Virus record (IMG/VR): IMGVR_UViG_3300032561_000099
Coordinates: 1-28,739 of that record
Length of the DNA stretch: 28,739 bases
Reading direction: 5' to 3' (one strand)
DNA from: a virus
The first letter of the stretch is position 1. Every line of letters starts with the position of its first letter. A model generated the notes under the pieces. The model did not search any database. It had not been told where the DNA came from and was given only the letters and a program-made list of their open reading frames with translations. Positions 4,633 to 27,031 of the stretch are shown here, piece after piece. The translations under genes and the position numbers were made by a program.

Positions 4633-5175
4633 ATGAAAGAATATACAGTTGATTTGGGTAAGAAAATCGTCGTATACGACGATGTTTTTGACCTACACTA
4701 TAGAGAATTTCTATATGACGCGGTAACTAAGGCTAAATTTAGTATTGGGTGGACTGATGGAGATAGTATAGAACGTCAACAGCACAAATATCTATATTCT
4801 GAATTTAATCAAGCAGATTTAGATTATTTGAAATTATTAGAAAAAATTGCAAGGTCTCCCGTTCAACAAGAAATAAATGATTACAAAATCAGCAAGGTAG
4901 TATTAAATCTCTCCACCCCAAGCGACACACACTTTGTTCACACTCACCCAGAAGACAAAGTTGTGCTATACTATGCTAATCTACATTGGAATAACTGCTG
5001 GTATGGCGAAACACTGTTTTTTGATGAAACAGAAAAAAATATTGTGTTAGCTACCCCATATACTCCAGGTCGTATCACTGTGTTTGATGCTACGATTCCG
5101 CACACTATACGCCCGCAATCACATACTGCACCACATTATAGATTTACTTTGGCCATGGTGTTTAATAAATGTTAG
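4633..5175 (+). CDS. 2-oxoglutarate/Fe(II)-dependent oxygenase-like protein
   Basis: The protein has 180 residues. The core shows HFVHTHPEDKVVLYYAN (100-116), where H103/H105 supply the proximal metal ligands. A strand with GETLFFD (125-131) follows, then the distal His in IPHTIRP (H157), and an Arg (R170) in the last strand, expected to bind the 2OG carboxylate. This is the double-stranded beta-helix pattern of prolyl-4-hydroxylase-type phage oxygenases, though the first motif is HxH/HxE-like rather than the classic HxD. The substrate is unknown; such phage enzymes are usually suspected of hydroxylating proteins. The gene is one of only two complete plus-strand genes here. It overlaps the next oxygenase by 7 nt (ATGTTAG), so they form a two-gene operon behind the 4598 promoter. 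There is no ribosome binding site before the ATG. Confidence 0.7.
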   Translation: MKEYTVDLGKKIVVYDDVFDLHYREFLYDAVTKAKFSIGWTDGDSIERQQHKYLYSEFNQADLDYLKLLEKIARSPVQQEINDYKISKVVLNLSTPSDTHFVHTHPEDKVVLYYANLHWNNCWYGETLFFDETEKNIVLATPYTPGRITVFDATIPHTIRPQSHTAPHYRFTLAMVFNKC

Positions 5176-5609
5176 TGGTTTTAGATAATGTATTATCTGA
5201 CAACGACAATCAAAAAGTCTTAGATTATATTCAAACTGATGGCTGGGTTGAAGGCAGTAGTCCGTTACAGCCATTATTAGCTATTGCTGGTCAATATATT
5301 GATTTATCTAGTATGATTGGCTATGAGTATTGGTGTAATAGTAATCAACAGGGATTAGATTGGCACACAGACAAAGACGAAAAATTATTTCATACATCAG
5401 GCCAGTTAGAATTACCGTTGTGCAGTATGGTCTATTATGCTAAAATACAAGACCTAGCAGGGGGAGAATTTATTTCAAATAGCGAAATAATACGCCCAGT
5501 GGAAAATAGATTGGTATTGTTTAGTGCAGGGTTAATGCACAAAGTTGACCCATACACAGGAACCCGCATTGCGGTCAGTATTAATCCTTGGGCTAGACGC
5601 TTAGAATAG
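5169..5609 (+). CDS. 2-oxoglutarate/Fe(II)-dependent oxygenase
   Basis: The protein has 146 residues and a complete facial triad: DWHTDKD (H66 and D68), the distal His in GLMHKVDP (H124), and R133 in TGTRIAVSINPW for the 2OG carboxylate. GGEFISNSE (98-106) precedes the distal motif, as in prolyl-4-hydroxylase-like enzymes. It is short for the family and is essentially just the catalytic beta-helix. It starts within the stop of the preceding oxygenase, which implies translational coupling. Its 3' end overlaps the 3' end of the convergent radical SAM gene by 17 nt. The position next to the rSAM/Cys-Asn peptide cassette makes a role in protein modification attractive, but this is inference; a nucleotide or lipid substrate cannot be excluded. 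Confidence 0.75.
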   Translation: MLVVLDNVLSDNDNQKVLDYIQTDGWVEGSSPLQPLLAIAGQYIDLSSMIGYEYWCNSNQQGLDWHTDKDEKLFHTSGQLELPLCSMVYYAKIQDLAGGEFISNSEIIRPVENRLVLFSAGLMHKVDPYTGTRIAVSINPWARRLE

Positions 5610-6942
5610 GAATAACTTTCTTTTTAGGTACACCATTAACAGCACCAATGATGTCTTTGCGTGCATCTGCTTGTGGGCCATCAATATAGTAGGGAATAGT
5701 TCCTGTTAATATTTCCCAAGCACTCATAAAGAATGGAATATTGTCGCTATATGAGTTATCACAAGCTAGTTCCCACATGTCGCCTGCTAAAAACATACAA
5801 CTACCGTGACAAAGTTGTAGCACAGGGCAGTTAGGGCATTCAGCTCTATGACTCCAATGTGTTGATGTGGTAAGTTTAATATTGTCAAAGTCAGCTACAT
5901 TACCTATTAGATGACTAGCACCGTTAAAACTAGTAGCTACAGCTGATACATTTTGACAGGTCAGCACTTGTCCTTTTAAATCTACAGCAATATTGTCCGC
6001 ACGATCCATACCACATTTTTGTCCTAGTGCCGTAGCGGGACGACGTGTTACTATACTTTTGATAAAATCATTAATCTTACGGTTAACTGCGTCTATATGA
6101 CTGGCTTGTCCTTTGCGCAGTTCACCAAAACTAGCACTACGATAATTAATATGATCCGCAGCTTCAGTCATACAAACACTAGCACCACCTTCATCGTATG
6201 GGTCAATAAACCCACCTTCGCCAATGGGCACGTCAAATCCTAGTCGTTGTTTAAACCACTCAACTATAGCACCGCGACTAGCGTTATTTTTGTGTATCAT
6301 AGCATTAAAACTCATACGCCCTTGGGAGCCTAACCTATGCCACAGATCTAAAATCATCTCAAGCTGTTCTGGGTTATCAAACGGATCTAACCCTCTGGCA
6401 TGGTATCCAGGGCCATCGTGACTGATGCCCACTGTAAATCCTAGTTCGTCTAACCAAGCATTCTTTTCTAAATCTAATACTGTGCCATTGGTAACTATGC
6501 CAAATCTAGCAGTGGGATATCTGGCACGAATACCTTCTGCCAATGGTTTAAGGGTTTTCCAATAGACGAAAGGTTCTCCTCCCCAAAATTCTACTTTGAC
6601 ATCATCTGTAGGGTGGAACCAATTTGGTAATTCTTCTAGGAAAGGGCCTACATCATCTTTATTGGTTTCATCAGCACGCGGCACAAATCTCTGACTACAG
6701 TAAACGCACTCATAGTTACAACTAAGTCCTAGTTGTATTTTTAACACTTTAATATCTTTTGTTTTACCTGCTGGAGTTGCTTGGCTTGTAGCAAACACAG
6801 CATTGTAATTAGGTTGTTCATCACTTTTAACTTTGATTAAATTGCCCTGTTCATCAAATATTTCAGATGTTAGATTATCATAGACAAATGTGTGTTCTTC
6901 GTTAGTGATAGGTTTAACTGCACGGATAGTAAACTTAGCCAT
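5593..6942 (-). CDS. Radical SAM/SPASM domain protein, candidate RiPP maturase
   Basis: The protein has 449 residues. The radical SAM cluster motif CX3CX2C is intact (C75, C79, C82), followed by WGGEP (120-124), which helps bind SAM, and VTNGT (150-154). The C-terminal SPASM domain has all seven expected cysteines: C310, then GX4C (G324, C329), then CX2CX5CX3C (C369, C372, C378, C382) and C394. It should therefore hold two auxiliary Fe-S clusters, as in anaerobic sulfatase maturases and many peptide-modifying enzymes (sactisynthases, ranthipeptide and quinohemoprotein maturases). The N-terminal 65 residues look beta-rich and precede the barrel. The start ATG shares a base with the stop of the upstream oxygenase (TAATG), so they are coupled. 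Three Cys-Asn-tailed small proteins lie 1.4-2.4 kb upstream in the same direction and are the obvious candidate substrates. Chemistry on them is inferred, not shown. Confidence 0.88.
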   Translation of the reverse strand: MAKFTIRAVKPITNEEHTFVYDNLTSEIFDEQGNLIKVKSDEQPNYNAVFATSQATPAGKTKDIKVLKIQLGLSCNYECVYCSQRFVPRADETNKDDVGPFLEELPNWFHPTDDVKVEFWGGEPFVYWKTLKPLAEGIRARYPTARFGIVTNGTVLDLEKNAWLDELGFTVGISHDGPGYHARGLDPFDNPEQLEMILDLWHRLGSQGRMSFNAMIHKNNASRGAIVEWFKQRLGFDVPIGEGGFIDPYDEGGASVCMTEAADHINYRSASFGELRKGQASHIDAVNRKINDFIKSIVTRRPATALGQKCGMDRADNIAVDLKGQVLTCQNVSAVATSFNGASHLIGNVADFDNIKLTTSTHWSHRAECPNCPVLQLCHGSCMFLAGDMWELACDNSYSDNIPFFMSAWEILTGTIPYYIDGPQADARKDIIGAVNGVPKKKVIPILSV

Positions 6943-7580
6943 TATAAGGTTACATAGTTCCTAGCTGGATCAACAACTTTAATGTTAGTAGCCAATGCTA
7001 TAGTATCAACTGAACCTAGATTAGCTTCTGTGGTATGGAATGTTGATGCTGGGTGTATCAGCAGTGTACCAGCACGTGGGCTGATGGGAAACAACATGGT
7101 ATGGTTTAAGAAACGACTGCGTGAGGGCATTGGATCAATTAAATGTAAACGATTACCCGTCATTCGTTGATGTGTGTTGTTATTTGGTGGGTCTGTGTCT
7201 TCTAAGGCTATCCACAACACTGCCACATAGTCAACACTGCGATGATTGTGTGGTTTGGCATATTCTCCTGGCGCAAACTTACGCAGGCTAGTTACTGCTT
7301 CAAACGCTACACTGTTTAAAAATCCTTCTGCTCTTGCTAGGTCTAGCATACGTGACTTTAGCATCTGTTTAAATAGTTGACATGCTGGGCGAGGATCTGC
7401 TAATAAGTTGTAAACGTTTTCTTTGTTCGTGCGCATGGCCGCTGGCACATGTGCTTCTGGATGAGCTGCTTCATACTCTTCGCCAATGGCTAAGATTTCA
7501 GATAAAAATTCCTGTGTAGCTTCAGGTGCTTGTGCTTCATAAAGAACATTAGTCGGCCATAGTGAAACTATGTTATTCAA
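6942..7580 (-). CDS. Putative 2OG-Fe(II) oxygenase (2OG-FeII_Oxy_5-like)
   Basis: The protein has 212 residues. It opens with SLWPTNVLYEA, as in the 2OG-FeII_Oxy_5 group, which starts with F-P-T-x-V-type strands. It has YAKPHNHRSVDYVAVLWI (107-124; H111 and H113), then GTLLIHPASTFHTTEAN (171-187), where H182 is the expected distal ligand. The Arg normally found in the last strand (RxSxxFN) is not visible: the segment reads SVDTIALATNI. 2OG binding may therefore differ, or the protein may not be a standard oxygenase. The start must be TTG at 7580: the frame has a TGA three codons upstream and no ATG or GTG nearby, and GGTG lies 8 nt before it. It overlaps the upstream gene by 8 nt and the rSAM gene by 1 nt, so these are tightly coupled. 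Confidence 0.6.
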   Translation of the reverse strand: MNNIVSLWPTNVLYEAQAPEATQEFLSEILAIGEEYEAAHPEAHVPAAMRTNKENVYNLLADPRPACQLFKQMLKSRMLDLARAEGFLNSVAFEAVTSLRKFAPGEYAKPHNHRSVDYVAVLWIALEDTDPPNNNTHQRMTGNRLHLIDPMPSRSRFLNHTMLFPISPRAGTLLIHPASTFHTTEANLGSVDTIALATNIKVVDPARNYVTL

Positions 7581-22943: not shown

Positions 22944-23933
22944 TTATCTTGGTGTTGTACTGATAACTGGTTTCTTGCCTTGAGCAATACGACCATCATT
23001 ACCTGCTAATTTACCGTCTTTGTCGCCTACTTTCTCAGCGCCATGACCGCCTTCGCCGCCACCGTCCCATACTTTTTTCTTGCCTGGAACGTTTTTAAAG
23101 CTGCCTGCGTGTGGTAAATTGCCTTCACCTTTTTTGTATTGGTTTGGAGCACCTTCTTTAGCTGGAGCATTGCCGTCTGGATTGCCATTAGCTTTACCAG
23201 TTGCGATATTCTTAGCTGAACCGCCCATGTCGTTCTTAGATGCTACAGGGTCTTTAGTATTAGGTGCAGCTTTGAAGCTGTTACCTGTACCAACTGTTTT
23301 ACCTTCTTTACCATCTAATTCACCTTTGTATGGTGTACCAACATTGTCAACGTATTCTTTAACGACTTTTTTAGACTCTTCTAAATCTTCTTCGTCATCG
23401 TCTTCTTCATCGTCTTCTTCATCGTCTTCTTCATCGTCTTCTTCTTTAGCTTCGTACATCATGCCTTCCATTTCGTCTTCTGAACCTTCTTCACTGTGGA
23501 AATCAGGATCATCAATACCGTCATGGTGTTCTGGCTCATGTGCTTCGTCAGCCATCAAAGCATCAAATTCAGCTTTAAGTTCGTCAAGTGCTGATTCTAA
23601 GTCAACAACGCGATCTTCTAATTCTTCTTCACCAGCTTCTTCACCAGCTTCGTCGTGATCAAACGCACCGTCTTCTTCTTCAGCGTCTTCTTCAGCGTCT
23701 TCTTCACCGTATTCTTCTTCTTCTTCTGAAATGCCTTCTTCGTCCATTTGAACGTCTTTTACCAGGCCTTCAACTTCGTTACCACCCATTACTTCATCTA
23801 GGTCTTCTTCTTCAACTAGACTTTCATAGATATCACGTGATTTTTCCACAACGATTTGGTGGAACAATTCACGAGCTTTGTCTGTTTCATCGTTGATGAT
23901 GAATTCGACTAATTGTTCGTATTTGTTGCTCAT
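22944..23933 (-). CDS. Acidic prohead core protein (gp68 position)
   Basis: The protein has 329 residues. An N-terminal helical domain, SNKYEQLVEFIINDETDKAR and FHQIVVEKSRDIYESLV (to about 41), matches what T4-like cyanophages encode in the prohead-core position. It is followed by an extraordinary Glu/Asp-rich region (about 42-190) containing repeated EEDD units, and a basic/Gly-rich end with GNGNPDG-type segments. Acidic core proteins fill the prohead and are degraded by gp21. Homology to T4 gp67/gp68 is by position and N-terminal pattern only; the protein is much longer than either. AAGGAG lies before the ATG. Confidence 0.7.
   Translation of the reverse strand: MSNKYEQLVEFIINDETDKARELFHQIVVEKSRDIYESLVEEEDLDEVMGGNEVEGLVKDVQMDEEGISEEEEEYGEEDAEEDAEEEDGAFDHDEAGEEAGEEELEDRVVDLESALDELKAEFDALMADEAHEPEHHDGIDDPDFHSEEGSEDEMEGMMYEAKEEDDEEDDEEDDEEDDDEEDLEESKKVVKEYVDNVGTPYKGELDGKEGKTVGTGNSFKAAPNTKDPVASKNDMGGSAKNIATGKANGNPDGNAPAKEGAPNQYKKGEGNLPHAGSFKNVPGKKKVWDGGGEGGHGAEKVGDKDGKLAGNDGRIAQGKKPVISTTPR
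23397..23444 (-). repeat. 12-bp tandem repeat encoding EEDD units
   Basis: ATCGTCTTCTTC is repeated four times without error. On the minus strand it encodes Glu-Glu-Asp-Asp units in the acidic core protein. Multiples of 12 bp keep the frame, so the copy number can change freely. Confidence 0.9.
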
Positions 23934-23993
23934 TTAAGAACTCCTTAAAAATTAATATTAAATCCGGACTAATACTTGAGAGTAAATGTATTA

Positions 23994-24001
23994 TGTTTAT
24001 A
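23994..24001 (-). promoter_or_regulatory. Possible late promoter box (TATAAACA)
   Basis: Minus-strand TATAAACA, one base off the consensus, lies about 60 nt before the acidic core gene within the 132-nt AT-rich gap 23934-24065. The downstream extension differs from the other boxes, so this is weak. Confidence 0.3.
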
Positions 24002-24065
24002 TATTTACTTTAGATTACAGAAAAGGGGGTTAAATGCTAGTTTTTTGATTGATTTTGGAGGATAA

Positions 24066-24290
24066 TTACAGCGTTGGGGCTGCGGCAGGTGGTGCTTTAT
24101 ACTGCTTTTGTACACCTGTGAGCTTTTGTTCATGTTCTAACTTACGCACATCATTCATGACGCGTAGGCGATTAATCTGTTTTAGAGTCAGTTTGGTTTT
24201 ACGCAAGTCGTGTAGTTTTAGCTCTGTATGATCTTCTTTTTCAGAGCGATAGCCAGTTGGATCTTGGTCAAATACTTCAAGTAGGTTCAT
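24066..24290 (-). CDS. Small conserved head-cluster protein (gp67 position)
   Basis: The protein has 74 residues: MNLLEVFDQDPTGYRSEKED, then LRKTKLTLKQINRLRVMNDVRKLEHEQ and a Pro/Ala tail. Similar small proteins lie just downstream of gp20 in T4-like cyanophages; a prohead core role like T4 gp67 is inferred from position. An in-frame ATG five codons upstream (24305) lies inside the late promoter box, so the ATG at 24290 is the likely start. The box at 24296-24303 puts the first transcribed base at or next to this ATG, and no Shine-Dalgarno site is seen, so this transcript may be leaderless. Confidence 0.65.
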   Translation of the reverse strand: MNLLEVFDQDPTGYRSEKEDHTELKLHDLRKTKLTLKQINRLRVMNDVRKLEHEQKLTGVQKQYKAPPAAAPTL

Positions 24291-24295
24291 GTTAT

Positions 24296-24303
24296 TATTT
24301 ATC
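24296..24303 (-). promoter_or_regulatory. T4-type late promoter box (GATAAATA), leaderless layout
   Basis: Minus-strand GATAAATAATAAC is followed at once by ATG. With T4-like spacing (start 5-7 nt after the box) initiation falls on the ATG at 24290. The box restarts transcription of the head cluster after the inserted gene upstream. Confidence 0.6.
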
Positions 24304-24356
24304 AAAAAGACTGTAAACTGAATCCATCAGCGGCCCTACCAGCAAAAAATATGTGA

Positions 24357-25196
24357 TTATTTAACTTCATATAAATTAAAAAAATCTTCTGTTGATGTAG
24401 GTAATTCTTTTATTAATTTTATCTGTTTAGGACTTTCTATATTATAAGATTTCATAAGCAGAGCGTGTATTATTGCTGTTTCAAAAAAGGTTAAATTAAT
24501 ACCTCTGACTATTTTGTTAATTACTTCCAAATAAATCGATTGGCAATTAGATATTATATCATAATAGGGTTTATTAAAATACAATACTTTCTGACAAAAA
24601 ATTTTAACTTTTTCTTTTTTTGGAGTCCATCCGCAAGCTATGATAGTTTCAATTATTTTTTCATATTCATTGTTATAAAACCATAGTACGTCAATAAAAT
24701 AGGTAGGATATTTGTGGGTGTGAAACTTAAAAAAATCACAGGTTAAAACATCAAACAAAGTAAAAGCTACTACTTCTATTTTATCACCAAAACTAGTACA
24801 TCTTGAATAATCAAAAAAATAATCATCTGGTGGTAATTTTTTGTTCCAACATTTTCCTATGCTCATTGACAAAATTAATAATCTGCCAAGGTCATTATTT
24901 GCGATTGGTGCGAGAGTTTCATCAGCAGCTGAAATAAAATTCCAATCAAATATTTGTTTTTTTATTATTGGTTTTTTTTCATGAAGATTAGCATACATAA
25001 CCATATCGGAAACCGGGTGTAAGTAAGATATATAAAAATTATCGACTTTTTTATGAATTACCGCATGAGTATGGAGATTATCACCTGGAATAAATTTAGG
25101 ATATCCAGGCAATCCTCCTTCTTCAGTACAATAATCTAATAATGCCGATACAAGGTGTGCTCCAGCACCGCCGCGGGAAATTAAACTAATTGTCAT
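24357..25196 (-). CDS. Unrecognised A+T-rich gene inserted in the head cluster
   Basis: The protein has 279 residues and I do not recognise the family. It opens MTISLISRGGAGAHLVSALL, a beta-strand, Gly-loop, helix pattern reminiscent of nucleotide-binding or sulfotransferase-like folds, but no proper Walker A (GxxxxGK[ST]) is present. It has His- and aromatic-rich stretches (FFKFHTHKYPTYFIDVLWFY) and six scattered Cys. It is visibly richer in A and T (Lys, Asn, Ile, Phe, Tyr) than the head genes on both sides. It separates gp20 from the gp67-position gene, which are usually adjacent. No Shine-Dalgarno site is evident before the ATG at 25196; TATTATAA lies 6 nt upstream. It looks like a recently acquired cargo gene (moron). 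Confidence 0.6.
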   Translation of the reverse strand: MTISLISRGGAGAHLVSALLDYCTEEGGLPGYPKFIPGDNLHTHAVIHKKVDNFYISYLHPVSDMVMYANLHEKKPIIKKQIFDWNFISAADETLAPIANNDLGRLLILSMSIGKCWNKKLPPDDYFFDYSRCTSFGDKIEVVAFTLFDVLTCDFFKFHTHKYPTYFIDVLWFYNNEYEKIIETIIACGWTPKKEKVKIFCQKVLYFNKPYYDIISNCQSIYLEVINKIVRGINLTFFETAIIHALLMKSYNIESPKQIKLIKELPTSTEDFFNLYEVK

Positions 25197-25219
25197 CTGT
25201 TTTATAATATCTCATACAT

Positions 25220-25235
25220 ATATAATTAATTATAT
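25220..25235. repeat. 16-bp perfect AT palindrome upstream of the inserted gene
   Basis: ATATAATTAATTATAT reads the same on both strands. It sits in the 107-nt gap between gp20 and the inserted gene. It might be an operator or a border of the insertion, or only AT-rich chance. The rest of the gap shows no terminator. Confidence 0.6.
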
Positions 25236-25303
25236 GACTCAACTATTCGTGGTGGGCTTTATTAGATAAAGTTTGATCCGACGAGAAGTATTTGTTAAAA
25301 TGC

Positions 25304-27031
25304 TTATAAACCTAATCCACCGGCTGGAGCACCTGCACCACCGGTAGGTGCACTGGCTGCCGCACCAGCTTCTTCAGGCCCGCCAGGAACTGCGCCTGCG
25401 GGTATCTCACCTATGGGTGCTGGTGTTAGTGTTTCTAAGTCCTGCTGTATACCTGCATTACTTACCCCAACGCTACGTAAGCCAGCATCTGGAGCGGTAG
25501 TATCTTCAACAGTACCATTTTCTTGCGCCCAAAGTTCATCGTTGCGTGTCATTTCTTCTTCACTTAGATCTAAGTAACGTTCTAGCAAGAATCGTTTGCT
25601 GAGATAAGGGATAGGTTCTAGCTGTGTAAATGTAGCGATACGTGTTTGATCCACTTCTGCTTGGCGATATTTGGCAAAGTTCTGTGGTTCGTTAAAGCGT
25701 AGTTCAAACAAGCTGTTGTCAATGTTTACCCCTCTCCAACGCATGAACATCTTGAATTCCATGTCTAGTTTTTCAACGATCAAGCGTTGTAAGCGCATAC
25801 AGTATTGATTAAATCGCCATTCTTGGATCAATGCTGTGGTTGTTTTACCATCACTGTAAGTACGTTCGCTTTCATCAATACCATTTGGCAAATACGAACT
25901 AGGAATACGTAAGCCACGGAACATCTTGTTAGTAAAGTAACGTAAGTCTGTGATTTCACCAAGATTTTGTCCACCTGGGAATACTTCTACAGTACTACCA
26001 CGGCCATCTGCTGTGGTTGGAAAAAAGTAGTCTTCGTTGGTTGACAATGGATTATAAGTAGCATCCATCATGTTTTGTCCACCTTCTGTTTGTGTAGGAA
26101 TACGACGTTGATGGATTTCATTTTTGATACGGTCAACATAGGCCATGGCCATGTGTGTGGGCATGTTACCTACGTCAATCTTAAAGATTCTGCGTTCTGG
26201 TGCACGTTGTATACGATAGATGATGATAGCATCTTCTAATAATTCTTTCTGTTTGAAAATCTTAAAGATACTTTCTAGCACTGAATTACCAAATGGCCAG
26301 TTTAAGTCTAAGCCTTCTGTTAGACTTAGGTGTACTACGTGTTCTGCATCAATAACAGCTTCATTTTTAGCATGGCTAAAACGTGATCCGCCACTGTAAG
26401 GTGTTTGTGGTTGTACATAACTACCACTTGGCCCGCCTACCTGTGGGTGGTTGATGAATGTATCGCTTGAGCTTAGTGCTGTAGCTGTCAAGTTCATAAA
26501 GTTGATGTTTAGATCTTTGATAACATACTGTTCTGGTTTCTTACCTTCAGCTTCGTTAACGATAACTTTGGTAACTTTGAACATTTCTGTCCAGAACAGT
26601 TTAAATGTTTCTGGGTCACGTAGGAATACTTGATCACCATATTTGATCACATTGCGTACCAGTTTGAATAATCTCTTGTTTAATTCGTTAAGACTGACCC
26701 ATTGTTGTAATTGGTCTTTTAGTATCTTAACTTCGTTGTCTGTGGGATCTTCTTTGAAGAATAGATCAAAACCTGTGCCATTTTCAATATTTGGCTGTGT
26801 CATGAATTCAGCTAGGATGTCTAAGGCTGCATTGACTTCACTGTCCATGTCCATCTGTTCATATTGATTGTAGCGTTCTGTGCGATTTGGATGTCCAATA
26901 TAGACTTCTGGTAATTGGCTGGCAAAGTTGCTGTATTTGACATCTGGTAAATTACCACCGTTGCCAATTGGGCTCATTAAACCACTAGAATTTGGGTTTG
27001 CTGCTTTAAAATATTTTTTCCATCCAGCCAT
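25304..27031 (-). CDS. 20: Portal vertex protein (T4 gp20 type)
   Basis: The protein has 575 residues. The dodecameric portal sits at one vertex, starts head assembly and is the channel for DNA packaging. Recognisable gp20 segments are YNQYEQMDMDSEVNAALDILAEF (cut here only by function: the conserved MD-x-DSE-x-x-x-ALD core), LNKRLFKLVRNVIKYGDQVF, AIIIYRIQRAPERRIFKIDV, and EVFPGGQNLGEI followed by FRGLRIPSSYLP. The length is close to T4 gp20 plus a Pro/Gly/Ala-rich tail from about residue 530. The ATG at 27031 has AGGAG 6 nt upstream in a leader of about 25 nt from the late box at 27056-27063. Confidence 0.95.
   Translation of the reverse strand: MAGWKKYFKAANPNSSGLMSPIGNGGNLPDVKYSNFASQLPEVYIGHPNRTERYNQYEQMDMDSEVNAALDILAEFMTQPNIENGTGFDLFFKEDPTDNEVKILKDQLQQWVSLNELNKRLFKLVRNVIKYGDQVFLRDPETFKLFWTEMFKVTKVIVNEAEGKKPEQYVIKDLNINFMNLTATALSSSDTFINHPQVGGPSGSYVQPQTPYSGGSRFSHAKNEAVIDAEHVVHLSLTEGLDLNWPFGNSVLESIFKIFKQKELLEDAIIIYRIQRAPERRIFKIDVGNMPTHMAMAYVDRIKNEIHQRRIPTQTEGGQNMMDATYNPLSTNEDYFFPTTADGRGSTVEVFPGGQNLGEITDLRYFTNKMFRGLRIPSSYLPNGIDESERTYSDGKTTTALIQEWRFNQYCMRLQRLIVEKLDMEFKMFMRWRGVNIDNSLFELRFNEPQNFAKYRQAEVDQTRIATFTQLEPIPYLSKRFLLERYLDLSEEEMTRNDELWAQENGTVEDTTAPDAGLRSVGVSNAGIQQDLETLTPAPIGEIPAGAVPGGPEEAGAAASAPTGGAGAPAGGLGL

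Follow-up and report, generated by a model that had tools for sequence, protein, structure and literature searches.

A candidate travelling cargo gene inserted between the portal and gp67-position genes of a large T4-like phage

Introduction

Excerpts of published work describe cargo between core genes as well known in T4-like phages (PMC2984593, PMC3037559, PMC2993671), and those from PMC2993671 describe such junctions as typically lacking the signature of known mobile elements, with ectopic insertion and homing enzymes discussed as agents. As far as these excerpts go, the closest described systems are the hypervariable (hyperplastic) regions of T4-like cyanophages, which hold enzyme-rich accessory cargo between conserved modules, between g15 and g18 (PMC2984593, PMC3037559), and the free-standing homing endonucleases of T4-like phages, which sit as lone genes at core-gene junctions (PMC2993671).

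Here we analysed a window of 28,739 nucleotides (positions 1 to 28,739 of the IMG/VR virus record IMGVR_UViG_3300032561_000099) in which a lone gene likewise stands at a core-gene junction. Whereas the cyanophage cargo lies between g15 and g18, the window has a single gene between the portal and gp67-position genes, with kin at the gp32-uvsX and gp46-segE junctions of other large phages; unlike the free-standing homing endonucleases, its family has no nuclease signature.

Results

The portal-gp67 junction in relatives

Relatives were drawn from a portal-protein scan of IMG/VR, of which we took the best 80 of 599 confirmed stretches; 79 of these read on beyond the portal gene and are informative, and the other (L049) ends at it. 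Throughout the 79 informative relatives (best 80 of 599 portal matches) the portal and gp67-position genes are adjacent, the frame of the latter starting, when extrapolated to the first aligned residue, from 2 nt upstream to 13 nt downstream of the portal stop, and no portal-relative locus (best 80 of 599) holds a match to the focal protein. By this comparison the junction appears to be normally invariant; in the window it is split by a 279-codon minus-strand ORF (Table 1). Relative L007 has an empty junction with 94% DNA identity on both flanks, the named phages Atu_ph07, Phosso, PA5oct, Hallingskeid and PBECO4 (5/5) carry a small gene directly 3' of the portal gene and no insert, and a 329-kb phage record has a family member between gp32 and uvsX with its portal junction empty. 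A sequence-only reading of this DNA had proposed inserted cargo rather than a core head gene, and had named presence or absence in related phages as the comparison that could refute it; the absence of the gene from 79/79 informative relatives (best 80 of 599) and from the five named phages rules out a core head gene, and we regard the focal gene as an insertion.

Table 1. Coordinates of the insert, its edges and the adjoining genes in the window.
Feature	Position	Strand	Basis
Portal gene (gp20-like)	25304..27031	-	Portal_T4 E 1.2e-99; 25304-26078 diverges abruptly from L007
Left copy of portal-gp67 spacer, box altered to CAAATA	25284..25303	-	15/20 identical to L011, L039, L040
16-bp AT palindrome, upstream of focal gene	25220..25235	.	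Weak mark
Focal gene, 279 aa, putative new protein family	24357..25196	-	ORF with ATG; closest homologue; 13-protein family
Inserted DNA between two spacer copies, largest estimate	24311..25283	-	Absent in L007 and in 79/79 relatives (best 80 of 599)
Decayed second copy of portal gene 3' end	24311..24344	-	26/34 identical to L016, 23/34 to L007, in register
Right spacer copy, intact TAAATA late box	24291..24310	-	Continuous with L007 spacer
gp67-position gene, 74 aa from ATG (24290)	24066..24290	-	phrog_13986 E 2.4e-8

Composition, coding status and upstream marks of the focal gene

The focal gene is A+T-rich and unlike its neighbours, as the sequence-only reading had it: its GC content is 28.6% against 39.3-42.3% in six adjacent head genes, its third codon positions have 19% GC, and 500-nt windows go down to 27% GC at the insert and span 34-49% elsewhere. 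Compared with the closest homologue, identity at codon positions 1, 2 and 3 is 0.565, 0.736 and 0.449 (276 codons), as selection on a coding sequence would leave it, and the ORF is a real gene. Among the marks noted upstream, TATTATAA is present immediately before the focal ATG, and the 16-bp palindrome is genuine, a Markov copy of the insert being expected to hold 0.06, but it is a weak mark because the whole window holds three. We likewise found no usable Shine-Dalgarno site at the focal gene, an absence shared by the gp67-position gene; AGGA, GGAG or AGGAG was found for 16 of the 26 genes listed in the window.

Edges of the insert

Two spacer copies bound the insert at its largest estimate, and the distance of the left copy to the spacer of L011, L039 and L040 was reached by 0.25% of 2000 shuffles. 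At the other end, compared with the last 34 nt of the portal gene, positions 24311-24344 are closest to L016 among the relatives (best 80 of 599), and the L007 score was reached by 0.12% of 5000 shuffles. The last 21 nt of this copy are 16/21 identical to L007, with 0/20000 shuffles as good, and the median relative reaches only 9/21 (best 80 of 599) because portal 3' ends vary. The doubled spacer and the portal match together show that part of the portal 3' end is duplicated along with the spacer, the right-hand copy being the decayed one.

Along the portal gene, 575 nt match L007 without a difference, and 100-nt blocks of the last 775 nt are 83-96% identical, the drop being abrupt and lying about 775 nt before the insert; beyond the right edge, identity is 96, 91 and 86% in the three nearest blocks and 92-100% in the following ones, with one block at 86%. 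The 3' half of the portal gene is about 7x as divergent as the 5' half in L007, compared with 1.2-2x in nine other relatives. The insertion point is thus a mosaic site, and we infer that recombination introduced a donor segment carrying both the cargo and a portal 3' end; the perfect tract of L007 could itself be the exchanged one, and either lineage may have been the recipient.

Moron-type insertions combine an extra gene with unlike composition, an own promoter and an own intrinsic terminator. In the window the extra gene separates genes that are adjacent in relatives (79/79 empty, best 80 of 599) and has the deviating composition given above; a sigma-70 scan found 7 promoters versus 7.6 expected from shuffles, the left late box is degenerate, and a simple consensus scan of 23900-25500 for intrinsic terminators found 0. 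Since no terminator was found, we call the insert moron-like cargo and not a moron in the strict sense. Of the proposed inserted moron the insertion is upheld, and the partly duplicated portal 3' end accounts for its edge better than a moron carrying its own signals would.

Late box and expression

The late box described as following the gene is real (24296-24301), but it is the spacer element resident at the site, as a spacer with TAAATA occurs in 79/79 empty sites (best 80 of 599); it belongs to the site and need not have arrived with the insert. TAAATA occurs 13 times on the head-gene strand, with 8 copies intergenic and just upstream of a gene, and 10 times on the opposite strand, always intragenic, as expected of a T4-type late box. 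This pattern suggests that the insert sits in a late operon of this phage, its homologues lying among replication and recombination genes, and the focal gene is probably expressed late. Separately, only about 5 nt part the late box from the ATG of the gp67-position gene in L007 and in the window (24288-24310). No Shine-Dalgarno site is present there, a hint that the late mRNA of that gene is nearly leaderless.

A family of 13 phage proteins

The focal protein has no significant match in Pfam, PHROGs, NCBIfam, PADLOC, named phages, plasmids or PDB sequences, the PDB sequence searches giving weak matches only (best E 0.78, 0.28 and 0.16), and a search of 36 portal-relative records gave one weak match, in the 329-kb phage between gp32 and uvsX (E 0.001). 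From a uvsX scan we took at least 80 further loci (L119-L198). Clear homologues were present in 6/80 of the uvsX loci listed, namely L122 (E 2e-23) and L162 (1e-23), homologous to the focal protein, and L123, L126, L151 and L174, homologous to the L083 protein; profile iteration confirmed this set, and a final scan, using three members as queries, contributed L208, L209, L213, L214 and L215 together with copies of L122 and L162. Alignment A4 holds 13 proteins, from environmental contigs, and its profile finds the known members at E 1e-81 or better with nothing else passing E 0.5 among the ORFs of 100 aa or longer from every locus collected up to that point except L001 and L002. The closest homologue, in L214/L215, also has 279 aa and is 46% identical over 277 columns, and phylogenetic analysis joins the focal protein to L214 and L215 with 95/97 support, long branches being present elsewhere in the tree. 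Ten positions after the first Met are invariant in the 13-row A4 (G10, L107, K115, P122, E141, N208, Y211, D213, L235, E239). No title naming this family was found in the literature searched, and the family appears to be undescribed in the libraries and literature covered.

Other candidates were rejected. Judged by eye, the Lachnospiraceae match L002 falls by chance within a radical SAM-like protein, and neither of the 2 loci from a glycine-loop motif pattern scan has a fitting ORF. A C-terminal motif pattern scan gave 24 stretches, with 4 on contigs already known for the L083-type gene and the other 20 not relatives (best E 0.058 among 8 scored, 12 without a 60-aa frame), and a scan with the two-row alignment A1 gave 227 stretches and no relative; L091, matched by the A1 profile, has no fitting ORF. 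ORFs of L155 and L197 joined early clustering or profile rounds and were dropped, having no match to the final profile at E 10.

Junctions occupied by family members

Among the 80 uvsX loci listed, gp32 is in view in 64, and the gp32-uvsX gap is empty (53-73 nt) in 23/64, of 93-296 nt in 3/64 and longer than 300 nt in 38/64. Across L119-L198 this is a strongly variable cargo junction with up to six genes, among them radical SAM enzymes above the Pfam cut-off, SDR-like proteins below it and proteins whose resemblance to sulfotransferases, SGNH hydrolases, 2OG oxygenases and formyltransferases was judged by eye alone. When 50 records were searched with the profile, members turned up in 7, all 7 between gp32 and uvsX, a count that is biased because the uvsX scan itself picks that junction; the 19 portal-relative records within the 50 gave one member only, in the 329-kb phage.

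The closest homologue (L214/L215) follows SDR and radical SAM genes between gp46 (SbcC-like) and the SegE GIY-YIG gene; every other member with a visible junction sits between gp32 and uvsX. Both gp46 and segE are in view in 16 loci, some of which overlap the same contig or are near copies: the gap is 215-446 nt in 11 and 911-3024 nt in 5, and 4 of these 5 wide gaps contain a radical SAM match. The gp46-segE junction is thus a further cargo site. Every gp32-uvsX member compared (8/8) lies at least 5 points of GC below both adjoining gp32 and uvsX, whereas the L214 homologue, at 34.6% GC, does not differ from its neighbours at 34.9 and 33.1%. The window's own radical SAM protein was considered as close kin of the one beside the L214 homologue and is not close.

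Further observations concern the surrounding cargo. Proteins of 175 and 204 aa, with no Pfam match and no clear PHROG match, follow the member as a fixed trio in L122:3837-4980, L162:770-1913, L207-L209, L211 and L212. In L083, L123, L126, L151 and L174 the cargo gene extends at its 3' end 13-20 nt into the start of uvsX, so that the cargo there is closely fitted to its site. The window has a second cargo-like block near its tail-fibre genes (4633-5175 and 5169-5609 on the plus strand, 5593-6942 and 6942-7580 on the minus strand), in which two genes match endonuclease V / 2OG-Fe(II) oxygenase PHROGs, another encodes a radical SAM protein (phrog_1802, E 8e-65) and the remaining one is 2OG-oxygenase-like by eye.

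Predicted structure

The 13-row AlphaFold model has a pLDDT of 74.1 and a pTM of 0.76, with residues 43-91 unreliable; a first model from 2 rows (pLDDT 33.7) was discarded. The 13-row model opens with a strand at residues 3-6 that leads through a glycine-rich loop into a helix at 11-23; further strand-helix units come next, and the C-terminus is helical. The ligand-binding loop suggested earlier is plausible on this model, as the glycine-rich start is conserved in the family and takes a strand-loop-helix form. Structure prediction and profile-profile comparison had been proposed as checks: the former modelled the N-terminal glycine loop, but Foldseek against the PDB gave no significant match (E above 1 for all chains), and profile comparison gave no link to the glycine-loop cargo families A5, A6 and A7 of gp32-uvsX. 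A6 and A7 (L156:2358-3200, L145:4125-4955 and relatives) are two unnamed cargo families whose N-termini likewise have a glycine-rich loop, and they may be related to each other (E 6e-4).

In VIA-align (81 chains) four sulfotransferase-fold chains came out on top (Z 5.8, 5.5, 4.7 and 4.3), followed by guanylate kinase (Z 3.9) and Stf0 (Z 3.7), values below 8 that can reflect a common arrangement. SULT2A1 (1ov4), SULT7A1 (5x2b) and Stf0 (1tex) have a weak fold resemblance to the model over residues 1-254 (Z 5.8, 5.5 and 3.7) and share a glycine-containing loop after the first strand; unlike them, the focal protein, at 6-9% identity, has no recognisable 3'-phosphate-binding motif. No curated sulfotransferase profile in Pfam matched the focal protein or the other members scanned, and Sulfotransfer_3 is not in this record at E 10. 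Because this profile test failed, sulfotransferase family membership is not claimed. Foldseek against a library of predicted viral structures returned uncharacterised proteins of uncultured phages, the closest being the uncultured Caudovirales proteins A0A6J5QRD1, A0A6J5P8Z8, A0A6J5LJT5 and A0A6J5R281 (E 6e-4 to 1e-2, probability 1.00), which differ from the focal protein in being only 10-14% identical (TM 0.36-0.51); a Pithovirus sulfotransferase in that library scored E 3.2. We consider it about an even bet that the protein is an enzyme that binds a nucleotide cofactor and transfers a group, our first guess for its chemistry being sulfotransferase-like.

Discussion

We favour, at a probability of roughly 0.55, the reading that the focal gene is horizontally acquired travelling cargo of a new family in large T4-like phages, probably expressed late and predicted to encode a nucleotide-cofactor transferase-like enzyme. 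Recombination would have brought in a donor portal 3' end together with the cargo and fused them to the resident one, after which the cargo gene would be transcribed late with the head genes. Less certain are the steps in which the enzyme may bind a nucleotide-type cofactor through its N-terminal glycine loop and may transfer a group, tentatively in a sulfotransferase-like manner, to a host or virion metabolite or glycan as an accessory function. Counted in favour of this reading were the empty relatives, the L007 flanks, the low GC, the 13-member family at three junctions, the portal 3' copy with mosaic identity, the model N-terminus, the VIA-align list and the L214 homologue beside SDR and radical SAM enzymes. 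Counted against it were the missing Pfam sulfotransferase match, Foldseek E above 1 and Z below 8, the failed profile comparison with three other gp32-uvsX cargo families, the lack of a partner gene in the insert and the L214 homologue whose GC is not lower than that of its neighbours.

The best-surviving alternative, which we hold to be unlikely yet worth weighing, keeps the inserted gene and makes its product a host-takeover, anti-defence or superinfection-exclusion factor instead of a metabolic transferase. Single-gene, A+T-rich cargo scattered among relatives is the usual behaviour of such factors, and the focal gene behaves in this way; however, enzymes such as radical SAM and SDR proteins stand beside its homologues, and PADLOC, a library of defence and not of anti-defence proteins, gave no match. 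Still less probable is a homing element of the free-standing type, in which a nuclease-like gene would spread itself into core-gene junctions and co-convert their flanks. Lone genes at core-gene junctions that are empty in relatives, the mosaic flank with partial target duplication and the homologues near gp32 and beside a SegE gene would all suit it, and homing genes are described in the excerpts of PMC2993671 as colonising T4-like core genes; against it, neither Pfam, PHROGs nor NCBIfam gave a nuclease family match, and the fold matches are not nucleases. Slightly less credible again, on the three core-gene junctions and the mosaic tract with a duplicated target end at a near-identical empty site, is a family of travelling genes with their own means of site-directed spread, transferase-like and without a known nuclease; if true, a transferase-like protein would pair cargo benefit with site-directed spread.

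An accessory head protein, acquired for its place in the head operon, is improbable: the gene does lie within the head cluster on the same strand, but it is absent in 79/79 informative relatives (best 80 of 599) and its homologues are found among replication and recombination genes. An assembly chimera is the least credible of all. The DNA comes from a single metagenomic record, and the searches, which may leave out records near the window, found no other with these junctions; against a chimera, two false joins would be required and the diverged portal 3' copy at the right join points to age.

Under the favoured reading of horizontally acquired cargo, an orphan ORF becomes part of a defined family of 13 phage proteins with a closely related empty site beside it, a site that makes the origin, timing and effect of the focal gene directly testable. 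Portal-gp67 and gp46-segE would be added to the junctions at which large T4-like phages accept cargo. The decayed target copy and the mosaic flank would form a readable trace of one cargo insertion event, and the focal gene may thereby show how cargo moves among large T4-like phages.
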